From the NCBI RefSeq assembly GCF_002351485.1, contig NZ_NWMW01000002.1, positions 868,001 to 932,000 of the forward strand: DNA of 64,000 nt, read 5' to 3'. Shown in pieces: positions 9,796-37,801 of this stretch (the first letter of the stretch is position 1; every line of letters begins with the position of its first letter). The notes under the pieces are model-generated. The model was not told the origin of the DNA and searched no databases. It saw nothing but the letters and a program-made list of their open reading frames with translations. Origin of the DNA: Sphingomonas spermidinifaciens (GTDB lineage: Bacteria; Pseudomonadota; Alphaproteobacteria; Sphingomonadales; Sphingomonadaceae). Both the position numbers and the translations under genes were made by a program.

Positions 9796-9960
9796 GGGAA
9801 TCCACAACAGGGCACAGGCGCGGCTTTGGCGCGCTTCGAAATCGGTGCGTTGTGTTGTCCGGCGGATCGGCGGCCGGAATAGCCACCCGGAATTGCACCG
9901 GGTCCTTGCGAATGGTGAGCCTGTAATCACGCGAAGGGGTGGTTGGCAACCGCTGGCATA
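9796..9960 (-). promoter_or_regulatory. Structured leader of the SulP gene, candidate cis-regulatory RNA
   Basis: The 214-bp gap between divergent SulP and gcdH is rich in inverted repeats. Perfect short stems are ACCCGG/CCGGGT (9885-9890 with 9898-9903, 7-nt loop), TCCGGC/GCCGGA (9858-9863 with 9873-9878) and GGTTG/CAACC near 9941-9952. All would lie in the 5' untranslated region of the minus-strand SulP mRNA. Structured leaders in front of sulfate-transporter genes in alphaproteobacteria have been described (the sul1 motif), and this may be one. I cannot confirm the consensus from memory. Confidence 0.4.
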
Positions 9961-35636: not shown

Positions 35637-35860
35637 GCGAAACAACAGGATTGATGGCCCCCGTGAAACGCGCGACTCTGGTTCCCATGTATAGGATCGC
35701 GGTGATAGCGGCGGCAGTCGGCCTTGGCGGATGCGTGAACGTGAGCGCGCCCGACAAGCCGATCGTCATCAACCTCAACATCAACATCACTCAGGAAGTG
35801 GTGTACAAGCTGGACGGCGAGGCAAAGTCGCTGATCCAGAACAATCCGGGGATTTTCTGA
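35633..35860 (+). CDS. ynbE: YnbE-like outer-membrane lipoprotein
   Basis: 75 residues if started at the ATG overlapping the ydbH stop, or 57 from the ATG at 35687; E. coli YnbE has about 60. The lipobox is GLGGC, so the mature lipoprotein starts CVNVSAPDKPIVINLNINIT. The PI-x-IN-x-N-x-NI strand and the C-terminal LIQNNPGIF are family features. YnbE lipoproteins are thought to stack beta-strands onto the C-terminus of YdbH at the outer membrane. Translational coupling favours the upstream start. Confidence 0.88.
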   Translation: MSETTGLMAPVKRATLVPMYRIAVIAAAVGLGGCVNVSAPDKPIVINLNINITQEVVYKLDGEAKSLIQNNPGIF

Positions 35861-35862
35861 CC

Positions 35863-36234
35863 ATGCGGTACGGACTTGCGGCTCTCATCCTCTCGGTCGG
35901 CGCGATCGCGTCGGGCGCCGCCCATGCCCAGCGCGACCCGGCCTACGCCGCGGCGCGCGCCGCCGGGCAGGTGGGCGAGCAGACCGACGGCTATCTGGGC
36001 ATCGTCGGTGCGGCCACCCCGGACCTTCGTGCGCTGGTGAACAAGATCAACATTCAGCGCAAGGCCGCTTACACGCAGGGTGCGCAGGCGGGATCGACGG
36101 TCGAGCAGTTCGCCTTCGTTTCCGGCTGCAACCTGATCGCGCGGACCGAGCCGGGCGAGATGTACCAGGCCCCGGACGGCAGCTGGAAGAAGCGCGGCGC
36201 GGGTGCGCCGCAGCGCGATCCGCGGTGCGTGTAA
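35863..36234 (+). CDS. ydbL: YdbL family periplasmic protein (DUF1318)
   Basis: 123 residues. The signal peptide is RYGLAALILSVGAIASGAAHAQ. The mature domain has AARAAGQVGEQTDGYLGIV, then LRALVNKINIQRKAAYTQGA, the conserved NKINIQRK core of YdbL. In E. coli YdbL is proposed to help assemble or limit YnbE multimers on YdbH. It starts 2 nt after ynbE. The C-terminal extension (RTEPGEMYQAPDGSWKKRG, one late Cys) goes beyond the short E. coli protein. Confidence 0.88.
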   Translation: MRYGLAALILSVGAIASGAAHAQRDPAYAAARAAGQVGEQTDGYLGIVGAATPDLRALVNKINIQRKAAYTQGAQAGSTVEQFAFVSGCNLIARTEPGEMYQAPDGSWKKRGAGAPQRDPRCV

Positions 36235-36236
36235 GC

Positions 36237-36264
36237 TTGCGATTTTCGCGAGTTGTGCTATTTA
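36237..36264 (+). promoter_or_regulatory. Promoter of the candidate antitoxin RNA
   Basis: TTGCGAT at 36237-36243, a 13-nt spacer, then GCTATTTA at 36257-36264. This fits the alphaproteobacterial housekeeping layout (TTGAC-like, 10-14 nt, GCTANA-like) and also contains an extended -10 (TGCTATTTA). It starts 3 bp after the ydbL stop. Transcription would begin near 36271. Confidence 0.55.
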
Positions 36265-36270
36265 GGTTTC

Positions 36271-36335
36271 GCAGTCTCTAATTCAGAGATCATCTTCCGA
36301 ACCCCGGCCGTTCCAGCGGCCGGGGTTCATTGCGT
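36271..36335 (+). ncRNA. Candidate antitoxin small RNA with complementarity to the peptide mRNA
   Basis: A predicted RNA of about 60-65 nt between a promoter-like element and a strong GC hairpin. Its 5' end, GCAGTCTCT (36271-36279), is identical to plus-strand 36455-36463. TTCAG (36282-36286) equals 36467-36471, and CTTCC (36294-36298) corresponds to CCTCC (36480-36484). The three blocks keep order and spacing to within 1 nt. Because the peptide gene is on the minus strand, the RNA is complementary to its mRNA across the SD, the CTG candidate start codon and codons 3-6 counted from it, for about 20 pairs. It can also self-fold (TCTCT/AGAGA). Transcription is not proven. Confidence 0.6.
36300..36327 (+). 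terminator. Hairpin terminator of the small RNA
   Basis: AACCCCGGCCG and CGGCCGGGGTT form a perfect 11-bp stem with a TTCCAG loop. It ends in TT followed by CATTGCGTTT, so the U-tract is short, as is common in high-GC genomes. It marks the 3' end of the predicted antitoxin RNA and may also terminate the ydbH-ynbE-ydbL transcript. Confidence 0.7.
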
Positions 36336-36337
36336 TT

Positions 36338-36361
36338 GGGGGCTGGTTCCAGCCAGCCCCC
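36338..36361 (-). terminator. Hairpin after the small hydrophobic peptide gene
   Basis: GGGGGCTGG and CCAGCCCCC form a perfect 9-bp stem around TTCCAG, 12 bp past the peptide stop codon on the minus strand. It has the same loop as the neighbouring small-RNA hairpin. No T-tract follows on either strand, so efficiency is uncertain. Confidence 0.5.
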
Positions 36362-36372
36362 GCCCGTCGCCC

Positions 36373-36480
36373 TTACGAGCGAGCCACCTCGATGATCTTG
36401 ATCACCAGGGTGGCAAACGCGATCACCAGCATCGCGATGCCGATGATCAGGTTTGCAGTCTCTTTCTTCAGGGATATCAC
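36373..36480 (-). CDS. Small hydrophobic peptide, candidate type I toxin
   Basis: 35 residues from a GTG at 36480, or 32 from a CTG at 36471. Composition is toxin-like: a charged start (SLKKETAN), one membrane-spanning segment (LIIGIAMLVIAFATLVIKII) and a short charged tail (EVARS). Such single-helix peptides of about 30 residues with Lys at both ends resemble the membrane toxins of type I systems (TisB, Fst, TxpA-like), by layout rather than by a family match. GGAGGTGAT (36484-36476) is a 9-nt perfect anti-SD match, spaced 8 nt from the CTG. A 5' hairpin and a promoter precede it. Convergent to the predicted small RNA; divergent from atpI. Confidence 0.6.
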   Translation of the reverse strand: MISLKKETANLIIGIAMLVIAFATLVIKIIEVARS

Positions 36481-36484
36481 CTCC
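36476..36484 (-). promoter_or_regulatory. Exceptionally strong Shine-Dalgarno of the small peptide
   Basis: The minus strand reads GGAGGTGAT, complementary over 9 nt to the 3' end of 16S rRNA. GGAGG is 8 nt before CTG (36471); the in-frame GTG at 36480 overlaps this SD but has another GGAGG 3 nt upstream. This is the target that the predicted small RNA could mask with CTTCC. Confidence 0.75.
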
Positions 36485-36488
36485 CTCC

Positions 36489-36520
36489 GCGTTCCTGATT
36501 GCGGCTGAACCGCGGAACGC
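36489..36520 (-). other. 5'-terminal hairpin of the peptide mRNA
   Basis: On the minus strand GCGTTCC (36520-36514) pairs with GGAACGC (36495-36489), and inside it GCGG pairs with CCGC around TTCAG. The stem sits at the predicted 5' end of the mRNA and ends 4 nt before the SD region. 5'-end stems of this kind protect and control known type I toxin mRNAs. Confidence 0.6.
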
Positions 36521-36525
36521 ATTGT

Positions 36526-36554
36526 GAACATAGCGCCGTCGCCGGCCCCGTCCA
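36526..36554 (-). promoter_or_regulatory. Promoter of the small hydrophobic peptide gene
   Basis: On the minus strand TGGACGG (36554-36548), a 13-nt spacer and GCTATGTTC (36534-36526). This is close to the alphaproteobacterial sigma70 pattern (TTGACGS, 10-14 nt, GCTANAWC), with six of seven matches in the -35. Start expected near 36520-36523, directly before the 5' hairpin. Confidence 0.55.
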
Positions 36555-36563
36555 CCCGCCCGG

Positions 36564-36591
36564 TTGACTTGCTCGCCACCCACCCCTAAGC
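36564..36591 (+). promoter_or_regulatory. Possible promoter of the F0 operon
   Basis: TTGACTT at 36564-36570 followed after 15 nt by CTAAGC at 36586-36591. The -35 is good and the -10 mediocre. It would give a leader of about 60 nt before atpI and lies back to back with the peptide promoter. Confidence 0.4.
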
Positions 36592-36656
36592 GGCACCTGC
36601 CTTGGCGGGCTCGCCGCTTGGCGTATGACTGGCCCCGCCGACAGGAGGGGACAGAC

Positions 36657-36974
36657 ATGGCCGAACCAGAGCCCGGACCGGACCCCTTGCCCGAGGATGC
36701 GCGGCTCAGCACGCTCGACGAGCGGTTGCGGCGCGCGACTTCCGAGGAGGCACGGCGATCGGGCGAGGGGGCTTCCGCTTCGTCGGAGGGCTATCGCCTG
36801 GGCAATCGCGTGCTTGCCGAGTTGATCGGGGGAATGGTCGGCGGTGCGGTGATCGGGGGAACGCTCGATTACTTTCTCGGCACCTCGCCATGGCTCCTGC
36901 TCGTGCTGCTTGCCCTCGGCATCGTCAGCGCGTTCAGGAACATCATCAGGCTTTCTGGCAAGCGCCCGGAGTAA
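36657..36974 (+). CDS. atpI: ATP synthase assembly protein AtpI
   Basis: 105 residues from the ATG at 36657, with AGGAGGGG and 6-nt spacing. An acidic hydrophilic N-terminal half (EPEPGPDPLPEDARLS) precedes two hydrophobic helices (ELIGGMVGGAVIGGTLDYFL and WLLLVLLALGIVSAFRNII). This is the alphaproteobacterial AtpI layout; the protein aids c-ring assembly and Mg handling of F-type ATPase. It heads the F0 operon. A hairpin encloses its stop codon. Confidence 0.9.
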   Translation: MAEPEPGPDPLPEDARLSTLDERLRRATSEEARRSGEGASASSEGYRLGNRVLAELIGGMVGGAVIGGTLDYFLGTSPWLLLVLLALGIVSAFRNIIRLSGKRPE

Positions 36975-36987
36975 ACTTCGGGCGCTT
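36960..36987 (+). other. Intra-operon hairpin enclosing the atpI stop codon
   Basis: AAGCGCCCG (36960-36968) and CGGGCGCTT (36979-36987) form a perfect 9-bp stem; the 10-nt loop contains the TAA of atpI. It is followed by TTGG. Placement suggests partial termination, RNA processing or translational tuning between atpI and atpB. Confidence 0.6.
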
Positions 36988-36994
36988 TGGTCAA

Positions 36995-37801
36995 ATGGGA
37001 ACGGCAGTGGCGGCTGAAGGACAAGGCACCATCGATCCGATGCACCAGTTCGAGGTGCAGTCGATCGCCGACATGTTCACGCTTGGCGGGCAGACGATCG
37101 CCTTTACCAACTCGGCGCTCTACATGGTCGCCGCGCTGGTGGCGCTGTGGGCGTTCATGCTGATGGGCATGAAGCGCGAACTCGTCCCCGGCCGCGGCCA
37201 GATGCTCGTCGAGAGCTTCGTCGGCTTCATCGACAAGCTGCTGGCGCAGAACATCGGCCATGCCGGGCGCAAGTACGTGCCCTATGTCTTCACGCTGTTC
37301 ATGTTCATCCTGCTCGGCAACCTGATCGGCCTGATGCCGCTGGGCCTGTTCAAGCTGCATCCCTTCACCTTCACCAGCCATTTCACGGTGACGGGCGTGC
37401 TCGCGATCATGAGCTTCTCGATCGTGCTGATCGTCGGCTTTGCCAAGCACGGCCTCCGCTTCTTCAGCCTGTTCGCGCCCAAGGGCACGCCGATCCCGGT
37501 GCTGCTGCTGGTCGCGCCGATCGAGTTCGTCTCTTTCATGGTGCGCCCGTTCAGCCTCGCGCTGCGACTGTTCGTCGCGATGACGGCTGGGCATATCCTC
37601 CTGAAGGTGCTGGCGAGCTTCGTCGTCAATGCGGCCAACACCGGCGCGGGCATCGGCCTCGCCGTCGGCATCCCCAGCTTCGCGCTGATGGTCGGCGTGT
37701 CGGCGCTCGAGGTGCTGGTCGCGGGCGTTCAGGCTTACGTTTTCGCGCTGCTCACGTCGCTCTACATCAACGACGCCGAGCATCTGCACGATCATCATTG
37801 A
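36995..37801 (+). CDS. atpB: ATP synthase F0 subunit a
   Basis: 268 residues from the ATG at 36995; a GTG at 37007 would give a start (VAAEGQGTIDPMHQFE) closer to related proteins and has GGGA upstream, so the true start may be there. Five to six membrane helices follow. The essential Arg of the proton path lies in FSLALRLFVAMTAGH, and the C-terminal helix is VLVAGVQAYVFALLTSLYI. Subunit a forms the half-channels next to the c-ring. The C-terminus is His-rich (EHLHDHH). Confidence 0.95.
   Translation: MGTAVAAEGQGTIDPMHQFEVQSIADMFTLGGQTIAFTNSALYMVAALVALWAFMLMGMKRELVPGRGQMLVESFVGFIDKLLAQNIGHAGRKYVPYVFTLFMFILLGNLIGLMPLGLFKLHPFTFTSHFTVTGVLAIMSFSIVLIVGFAKHGLRFFSLFAPKGTPIPVLLLVAPIEFVSFMVRPFSLALRLFVAMTAGHILLKVLASFVVNAANTGAGIGLAVGIPSFALMVGVSALEVLVAGVQAYVFALLTSLYINDAEHLHDHH

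Follow-up and report, generated by a model that had tools for sequence, protein, structure and literature searches.

The window analysed here, a stretch of 64,000 nucleotides of Sphingomonas spermidinifaciens (contig NZ_NWMW01000002.1, positions 868,001 to 932,000), contains a small module located between ydbL and atpI, with a putative toxin gene on the minus strand and an antitoxin RNA predicted on the plus strand (Table 1). The encoded peptide comprises 32-35 residues with one hydrophobic stretch. It is followed by two separate hairpins, HP1 and HP2, with identical loops, CTGGAA on the minus strand in both, and by a copy of the region surrounding the toxin start site. The assignment of both hairpins relies on loop identity counts, stem covariation and a strand test. 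In the fold predicted for HP2 in the window, the outer U-G of the loop is closed as well. Elsewhere in the window, the sul1 RNA (RF03058) at 9853-9908 on the minus strand is the sole Rfam match at the gathering threshold.

Table 1. Elements of the module and its upstream neighbour, in window coordinates
Feature	Position	Strand	Details and basis
Host gene ydbL (DUF1318)	35863-36234	+	Directly upstream of the antitoxin, same direction
Antitoxin promoter	36237-36264	+	-35 TTGCGA 36237-36242, 16-nt spacer, -10 TATTTA 36259-36264
Copy of the start-site repeat	36264-36299	+	Alignment; cognate versus non-cognate tests; 36271-36299 would fall inside the antitoxin RNA
Predicted antitoxin RNA, ~65-67 nt	36271-36337	+	Promoter spacing, terminator, fold; predicted ends, no transcript data
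HP2, antitoxin terminator hairpin	36299-36328	+	Hexaloop 36311-36316, UUCCAG, complementary to the HP1 loop
HP1, hairpin 3' of the toxin stop codon	36338-36361	-	Hexaloop 36347-36352, CUGGAA in the mRNA
Toxin peptide coding sequence	36373-36471	-	32 residues from the putative CTG start; stop codon 36373-36375; homologues and purifying selection
Start-site repeat in the toxin mRNA (Shine-Dalgarno, start codon, first codons)	36449-36489	-	Alignment score 39
Toxin mRNA Shine-Dalgarno GGAGGTGAT	36476-36484	-	Read in the sequence; similar Shine-Dalgarno sequences recur across the subfamily
Alternative toxin start GTG	36478-36480	-	Would make the peptide 35 residues (coding sequence 36373-36480)
5' hairpin of the toxin mRNA, adjoining the Shine-Dalgarno	36489-36520	-	Predicted fold; family-wide hairpin scores
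Possible toxin promoter	36527-36554	-	-35 TGGACG 36549-36554, 16-nt spacer, -10 TATGTT 36527-36532

The toxin reading frame is real, as shown by its homologues and by coding constraint. Purifying selection is evident from 103 nearest-neighbour pairs, which display 440 synonymous and 278 non-synonymous differences, a synonymous share of 0.61 compared with 0.26 expected without constraint, with codon position 3 accounting for 417 of the 718 differences. Among the 163 loci with matched loops, the peptide as called spans 26-36 residues, being 29 or 30 residues long in 131; the start codons were called by a script, a heuristic whose calls vary between analyses. Two main subfamilies can be distinguished, (i) a short one with ATG, and (ii) the longer one of the window, mostly without ATG and with Shine-Dalgarno sequences such as GGAGGTGAT, in whose members CTG or TTG is frequent at the start position. 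CTG is inferred to be the start of the window toxin, and is preferred over GTG because GGAGGTGAT covers the GTG and has the spacing of a Shine-Dalgarno relative to the CTG. The window subfamily combines a very strong Shine-Dalgarno with weak non-AUG starts, including CTG, TTG, GTG and possibly others, located near 36471 in the window, a combination that perhaps keeps toxin translation low.

Across the family the elements follow a constant order, comprising the 5' hairpin, the Shine-Dalgarno and start, the peptide, the stop codon, HP1, HP2, the start-region copy and a promoter reading back towards HP2. HP1 begins 7-13 nt after the stop codon in 150/163 loci, and HP2 lies 5-10 nt beyond HP1 in 142/163. 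The best 5' hairpin reaches a mean score of 20.1, compared with 14.4 in shuffles (162 loci); the G-U count for this hairpin was set aside since the detector was biased towards toxin-strand G-U. A sigma-70 consensus scan of 35800-37000 disclosed no promoter on either strand, and the window promoters were scored with a looser, hand-made matrix, according to which the antitoxin promoter TTGCGA-16-TATTTA is the best candidate of its stretch (score 5.3, 33 nt from HP2) and the toxin promoter TGGACG-16-TATGTT the best candidate of the upstream stretch (score 6.6). Family-wide, the antitoxin promoter shows a mean score of 7.3 compared with 3.6 in single-base shuffles, exceeds a score of 6 in 120/161 loci compared with 31 shuffles, and occupies a fixed place, 29-37 nt from HP2, in 128/161; its position is thus shown. 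The toxin promoter is weak family-wide, with a mean of 4.1 compared with 3.3 in shuffles (160 loci). On the plus strand, the HP2 hairpin scored as terminator-like, one of two such sites found in 35800-37000 where 0.9 would be expected by chance, and a T-rich stretch is located 3' of HP2 on the antitoxin strand. On the toxin strand, the frequency of T after HP1 does not exceed 0.04 over the first five positions and rises to 0.28-0.60 only at positions 6-9; given that hardly any T lies directly 3' of HP1, the end of the toxin mRNA is uncertain.

The start region of the window toxin aligns with its downstream copy with a local score that is reached by none of 5000 shuffles (maximum 32) and by none of 4979 random stretches of the window (maximum 28). 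The 5' parts of the two RNAs are predicted to form a duplex of -36.3 kcal/mol, while the 5' part of the antitoxin alone is predicted to be partly paired. Over 144 loci, the predicted start-region duplex has a mean of -48.7 kcal/mol for cognate and -33.0 kcal/mol for non-cognate combinations, and the cognate duplex lies more than 3 sd below shuffles in 118. The cognate antitoxin provides the single best duplex for 42/144 loci and ranks among the best five for 105/144, in a set that includes close relatives. This test started from 148 rows, with L037, L154, L183 and one row too short (by its length L174) being dropped, and used 55 nt, reaching into the antitoxin promoter. In a non-redundant set of 39 loci, the cognate repeat score is 30.6 compared with at most 20.7 after permutation, and the own copy ranks first for 22/39 and among the top three for 32/39. 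Paralogues within one genome were compared as well. By count from the genus profile table, 26 genomes display two or more matches; both loci were taken for 17, and 14 pairs were scored, with a cognate mean of 34.1 compared with 17.0 across paralogues. The hexaloops differ in 13 of these 14 pairs, and one paralogue, L047, is reversed, its own copy scoring 16 and the cross comparison 18. The start-region copy is therefore kept and tracks its target, as shown at the level of sequence.

These results bear directly on a preliminary description of the locus, prepared without database searches, which had proposed a type I toxin-antitoxin pair. The repeats it listed are all present as given: GCAGTCTCT at 36271 and 36455, TTCAG at 36282 and 36467, and CTTCC/CCTCC at 36294 and 36480. 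Its peptide reading frame held, with homologues and 61% synonymous differences versus 26% expected, as did its start-site copy, which lies beyond chance (alignment score 39, 0/5000 shuffles), and its 5' hairpin, supported by the predicted fold and by family-wide scores above shuffles. The antitoxin promoter it proposed also held, as the best candidate in its stretch and conserved family-wide, although the consensus scan returned none; the proposed toxin promoter held in part, being the best local candidate, weak family-wide and not found by the consensus scan. Its plus-strand terminator corresponds to the terminator-like hairpin at 36299-36328, with the reservation on chance sites given above, and its ~60-nt RNA at 36271-36335 is refined to ~67 nt, 36271-36337, with predicted ends. 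It had also proposed the duplex prediction reported above and a search of other ydbL-atpI gaps, considered below with the distribution of the family. Overall, the pair it proposed for a sphingomonad is strongly supported, with toxicity and transcription remaining inferences.

The identity of the two hairpin loops, overlooked in that description, is the second conserved element. The hexaloops of HP1 and HP2 are identical in 163/177 loci, as obtained with an improved hairpin assignment and more loci; a first count gave 130/146 identical, with 16 loop sequences, after L154 and L174 were dropped from 148 loci. A cut on hairpin score removed 8 of 185 candidates (L236, L223, L174, L220, L183, L270, L245 and L271). 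The family displays at least 16 loop sequences. Because the same sequence stands on opposite strands, the HP1 and HP2 loops are complementary between the two RNAs, and loop pairing was read accordingly, with the HP1 loop taken from the toxin RNA and the HP2 loop from the antitoxin. Standard pairs occupy all six loop positions in 148/159 distinct rows, compared with a mean of 25.2 and a maximum of 36 after shuffling, and in 63/69 redundancy-reduced rows; the 159 rows were derived from 177 by dropping three with odd loop lengths (L252, L246 and L233) and merging identical ones. The stems of the two hairpins are unrelated, with 20-22% standard pairs between hairpins, so that the match is confined to the loops. 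Within the hairpins, 21 of 22 stem pairs changed on both sides, a result reached by none of 500 shuffles.

Coevolution of the two loops is shown by their history. On a tree of 172 loci built with the loops masked, HP1 changed ~76 times and HP2 ~75 times, figures that are soft because the tree is a quick one from short sequences; among 50 sister pairs, 26 differ in the loop, and 24 of these 26 are matched double changes. Some loop types are mutual reverse complements (CTGCAA/TTGCAG and CGGCAA/TTGCCG) that swap in sister loci with both hairpins changed, and inversion of the loop may be among the ways in which such coordinated changes arise. As for the loop structure, a U-turn (YUNR) as a general rule was rejected, being compatible with only 5 of 17 loop strings and 67/163 loci. 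The loops are mismatched in 14/177 loci. Five related ones, L151, L160, L161, L162 and L163, display a UUCG tetraloop in HP1 and retain both CTGGCA in HP2 and the start-site copy, which indicates that the loop contact is not always needed; they represent a natural loss of that contact. The remaining mismatches comprise (i) L189 and L201, which have lost both the loop match and the start-site copy and look decayed; (ii) L148 and L196, in which one base differs; (iii) L252, a matter of loop-size call; and (iv) L216, L246, L249 and L251, which are unclear.

The strand in which each hairpin acts can be deduced from its non-standard pairs, as hairpins kept as RNA tolerate G-U and not C-A. With a detector that scores G-U and C-A alike, applied to the letters of the toxin strand in 177 loci, HP1 shows 172 G-U versus 5 C-A, whereas HP2 shows 5 G-U versus 154 C-A, the latter reading as G-U on the antitoxin strand. 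A first count, obtained with a detector biased towards toxin-strand G-U, had given 175 to 6 for HP1 and 141 to 4 for HP2 as read on the antitoxin strand; the repeat count is free of that bias. These biases assign HP1 to the toxin RNA and HP2 to that of the antitoxin.

The distribution of the family is patchy. A tblastn search with the window peptide matched 38/150 genomes at E 1, 36 of them within the genus; the two matches outside it, with E 0.6-0.7 and located in long frames, are probably due to chance. A peptide profile detected the family in 149/295 Sphingomonas genomes at E 0.1, about half of those sampled, and in 18/346 genomes of the order at E 0.01, distributed over 5/83 genera, all of one family (Sphingomonadaceae); a class-wide search with the profile returned 1/337 genomes, only that of the window itself. 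A DNA-pattern scan of named genomes disclosed the same anatomy in Sphingomonas, Sphingobium, Novosphingobium, Sphingopyxis and Erythrobacter records, yielding names and not frequencies because the pattern is present in only 76/144 loci. Copies occur in four plasmid records, one of them detected only at E 0.8 yet with matched loops, and one plasmid copy lies ~2.2 kb from a ParB gene; the phage records searched gave no match. Searches for known RNA families at the window locus returned nothing at Rfam gathering thresholds and five sub-threshold matches (E 0.054-0.62) at a relaxed setting, and nothing in five homologous loci. A covariance model of HP1, HP2 and the copy, R1, recovers the locus in its own genome at E 4.5e-26. 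Of its six other matches there, one corresponds to the opposite strand of HP2 itself; L301, L303, L304 and L305 were judged by eye to be without the family peptide, and the sixth, L306, was left unread.

Regarding the genomic setting, the antitoxin follows the end of a thiolase-like gene, in the same orientation, in 75/163 loci, these ends having been assigned by motif search with one neighbour confirmed by Pfam, and ydbL neighbours the module in 10/163. An antitoxin in line behind a host gene end, thiolase-like or ydbL, is therefore observed in 85/163 loci. Given this arrangement behind housekeeping genes, read-through might contribute to antitoxin levels, and HP2 may double as the host-gene terminator. 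Near 29 other ydbL loci, at 20 of which atpI adjoins, the toxin profile finds nothing; the module is thus accessory at ydbL-atpI.

Most members match no protein family with confidence. The window peptide scores 17.2 bits against Hol_Tox (PF16935), below the 23.3 cut-off (E 0.0047), and has no NCBIfam match, PepG1 (NF041589) included. Among 38 members tested, six match Hol_Tox at E 0.1 or better, and five, the divergent member L205 and four others, match PepG1, all below its 70-bit equivalog cut-off; no Fst or Ldr family appears among the Pfam matches of these 38. L205 exceeds the Hol_Tox cut-off (26.7 bits versus 23.3, E 5.1e-6) and has the best PepG1 score (32.2 bits, E 6.1e-8). It is also the one match in a PF16935 search of 99 genomes of the order, in which the control genomes of Bacillus subtilis and Lactococcus lactis matched as well. 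L205 preserves the RNA anatomy of the family, with matched CTGCAA loops, and links the family loosely to the TxpA/BsrG/PepG1 kind. Within L205, at 1410-1700, the Shine-Dalgarno is contained in a long inverted repeat, CCTCCTTTCGGTCGC...GCGACCGAAAGGAGG, which is inferred to mask it until opened.

Taken together, the locus is likely a type I toxin-antitoxin module, a reading in which transcription, toxicity and repression are inferred, without transcript, translation or toxicity data. The defining arrangement, a small hydrophobic peptide beside a region whose antisense transcript complements its mRNA, is met, and the conservation of the peptide and of both complementary elements is shown at the sequence level. 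According to the proposed mechanism, the minus strand would give rise to a short mRNA that has a strong Shine-Dalgarno and, in the window subfamily, a weak non-AUG start, and that encodes a membrane peptide with one helix; the plus strand would yield a small antitoxin RNA. The HP2 hexaloop of the antitoxin would kiss the HP1 hexaloop 3' of the toxin coding region, after which the antitoxin 5' part would pair, with bulges, to the Shine-Dalgarno, the start codon and the first codons. This pairing is predicted to block translation, and the duplex would probably be exposed to RNase III; the order of pairing, the translation block and the involvement of RNase III are inferred only.

Three rival explanations can be considered. 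The first retains the same RNA circuit and takes the peptide to be a non-toxic, regulatory small membrane protein, the locus being an antisense-controlled gene. In its favour, toxicity is only inferred, and the module is often chromosomal, beside the same housekeeping genes (thiolase-like in 75/163 loci, ydbL in 10/163). It is unlikely, however, since divergent members score with toxin families, the distribution is patchy (149/295 genomes) with plasmid copies, and resident paralogues hold different keys, as expected of addiction modules. The second proposes ordinary cis-antisense control, in which transcription of the toxin gene continues past HP1, through HP2 and further. Control would then come from the perfect 3' overlap and RNase III decay, as in txpA/RatA, with the start-site copy in a secondary role. 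It is compatible with the near absence of T directly 3' of HP1 and with the control of related Bacillus toxins via 3' overlap (PMC6562991), but appears improbable as well: a 3' overlap alone requires neither the identity of the HP1 and HP2 loops nor a start-site copy that tracks its target, and the G-U pairs of HP2 are kept on the antitoxin strand with hardly any on the toxin strand, which argues against its maintenance as a hairpin of the toxin mRNA. The third, that the hairpins are ordinary terminators and the copy a tandem-duplication remnant of the peptide start without regulatory meaning, can draw on the location of these elements between neighbouring genes, with HP2 where a host gene needs a terminator, but is all but excluded, since remnants would not change in step ~75 times or keep loop identity with differing stems, the antitoxin promoter is conserved, and chance DNA-pattern matches outside the family (L245, L270 and L271) are without a scoring hairpin pair.

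Beyond the type I reading, a bolder proposal, as likely to fail as to hold, considers the family a rapidly diversifying natural lock-and-key code, in which the hexaloop pair and the start-site repeat jointly constitute the key of each module and the two copies are altered together, dozens of times in a single bacterial family. In this proposal, same-genome paralogues hold different keys, and the modules would therefore not cross-neutralise. If true, the family would provide ready-made orthogonal kissing-loop RNA switches and an RNA-RNA coevolution traceable step by step. Irrespective of this, more than 100 natural loci with at least 16 loop keys make the specificity and evolution of kissing loops directly testable, and the family could supply orthogonal RNA parts.

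A search of the open-access literature at title and abstract level found no type I toxin-antitoxin system for Sphingomonas, Sphingomonadales or Alphaproteobacteria; an in-text mention, for instance in a Paracoccus paper, remains possible, and priority is not certain, as most subscription journals fall outside this search. A 2025 paper gives the range known before it as Proteobacteria, Firmicutes and Tenericutes (PMC12390103). The preliminary description had compared the locus with tisB/istR-1, shoB/ohsC and dinQ/agrB. In tisB/istR-1, shoB/ohsC and zorO/orzO, a small hydrophobic toxin is likewise combined with short antisense pairing to the toxin mRNA, and zor/orz also shows specificity between paralogues. 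In these three systems, however, the antitoxin gene is divergent and the pairing limited, often to 18-21 nt (PMC3919570), whereas the sphingomonad genes are arranged convergently and their RNAs would pair in two distinct places, the hairpin loops and the start site. dinQ/agrB is likewise divergent with limited pairing. Such analogues are thus less apt than par/Fst, whose plan of convergent genes and two pairing regions the module follows.

The peptides share the short, one-helix hydrophobic character of the Hol_Tox or TxpA-BsrG type and of PepG1 (txpA/RatA, bsrG/SR4 and sprG1/sprF1), TxpA and BsrG being taken here to fall under Hol_Tox. In Bacillus, toxin and antitoxin RNAs pair at their 3' ends over 100-140 bp (PMC6562991), and SprF1 reportedly acts via its 3' end (PMC8158120); in contrast to this 3'-end action, the sphingomonad antitoxin displays a start-site copy and a separate hexaloop. 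With regard to the Fst/Ldr signature, a Trp between the helix and the charged tail, no such residue was found in either peptide alignment, and among all called peptides Trp occurs only in L173 and the read-through L183, in the tail of both; the Fst prototype itself has Val at this position (PMC7472228).

The closest parallel is par/Fst, the RNA I-RNA II system of pAD1 and relatives, which shares with the sphingomonad module (i) convergent genes, (ii) direct repeats that give the antitoxin its complementarity to the start site of the toxin, (iii) a first contact, here proposed, between the loops of terminator hairpins, together with 5' structures in the toxin mRNA, and (iv) a similarly small membrane peptide, of 33 residues in Fst (PMC7472228). 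The requirement of start-site direct repeats read oppositely by convergent RNAs is met, the convergent promoters being inferred. The two systems differ in that both par RNAs share one bidirectional terminator, and its loops are complementary automatically because one terminator serves both RNAs, whereas the sphingomonad module comprises two separate hairpins with unrelated stems, each with a G-U bias on its own strand. Unlike in par, the identity of the HP1 and HP2 hexaloops is inferred, from sequence alone and with the real RNA ends unmapped, to be kept by selection. The module joins Hol_Tox/PepG1-leaning peptides to a par-like recognition with two separable, covarying pairing elements: the recognition logic is known from par/Fst, and the two separate hairpins with one covarying hexaloop are new.
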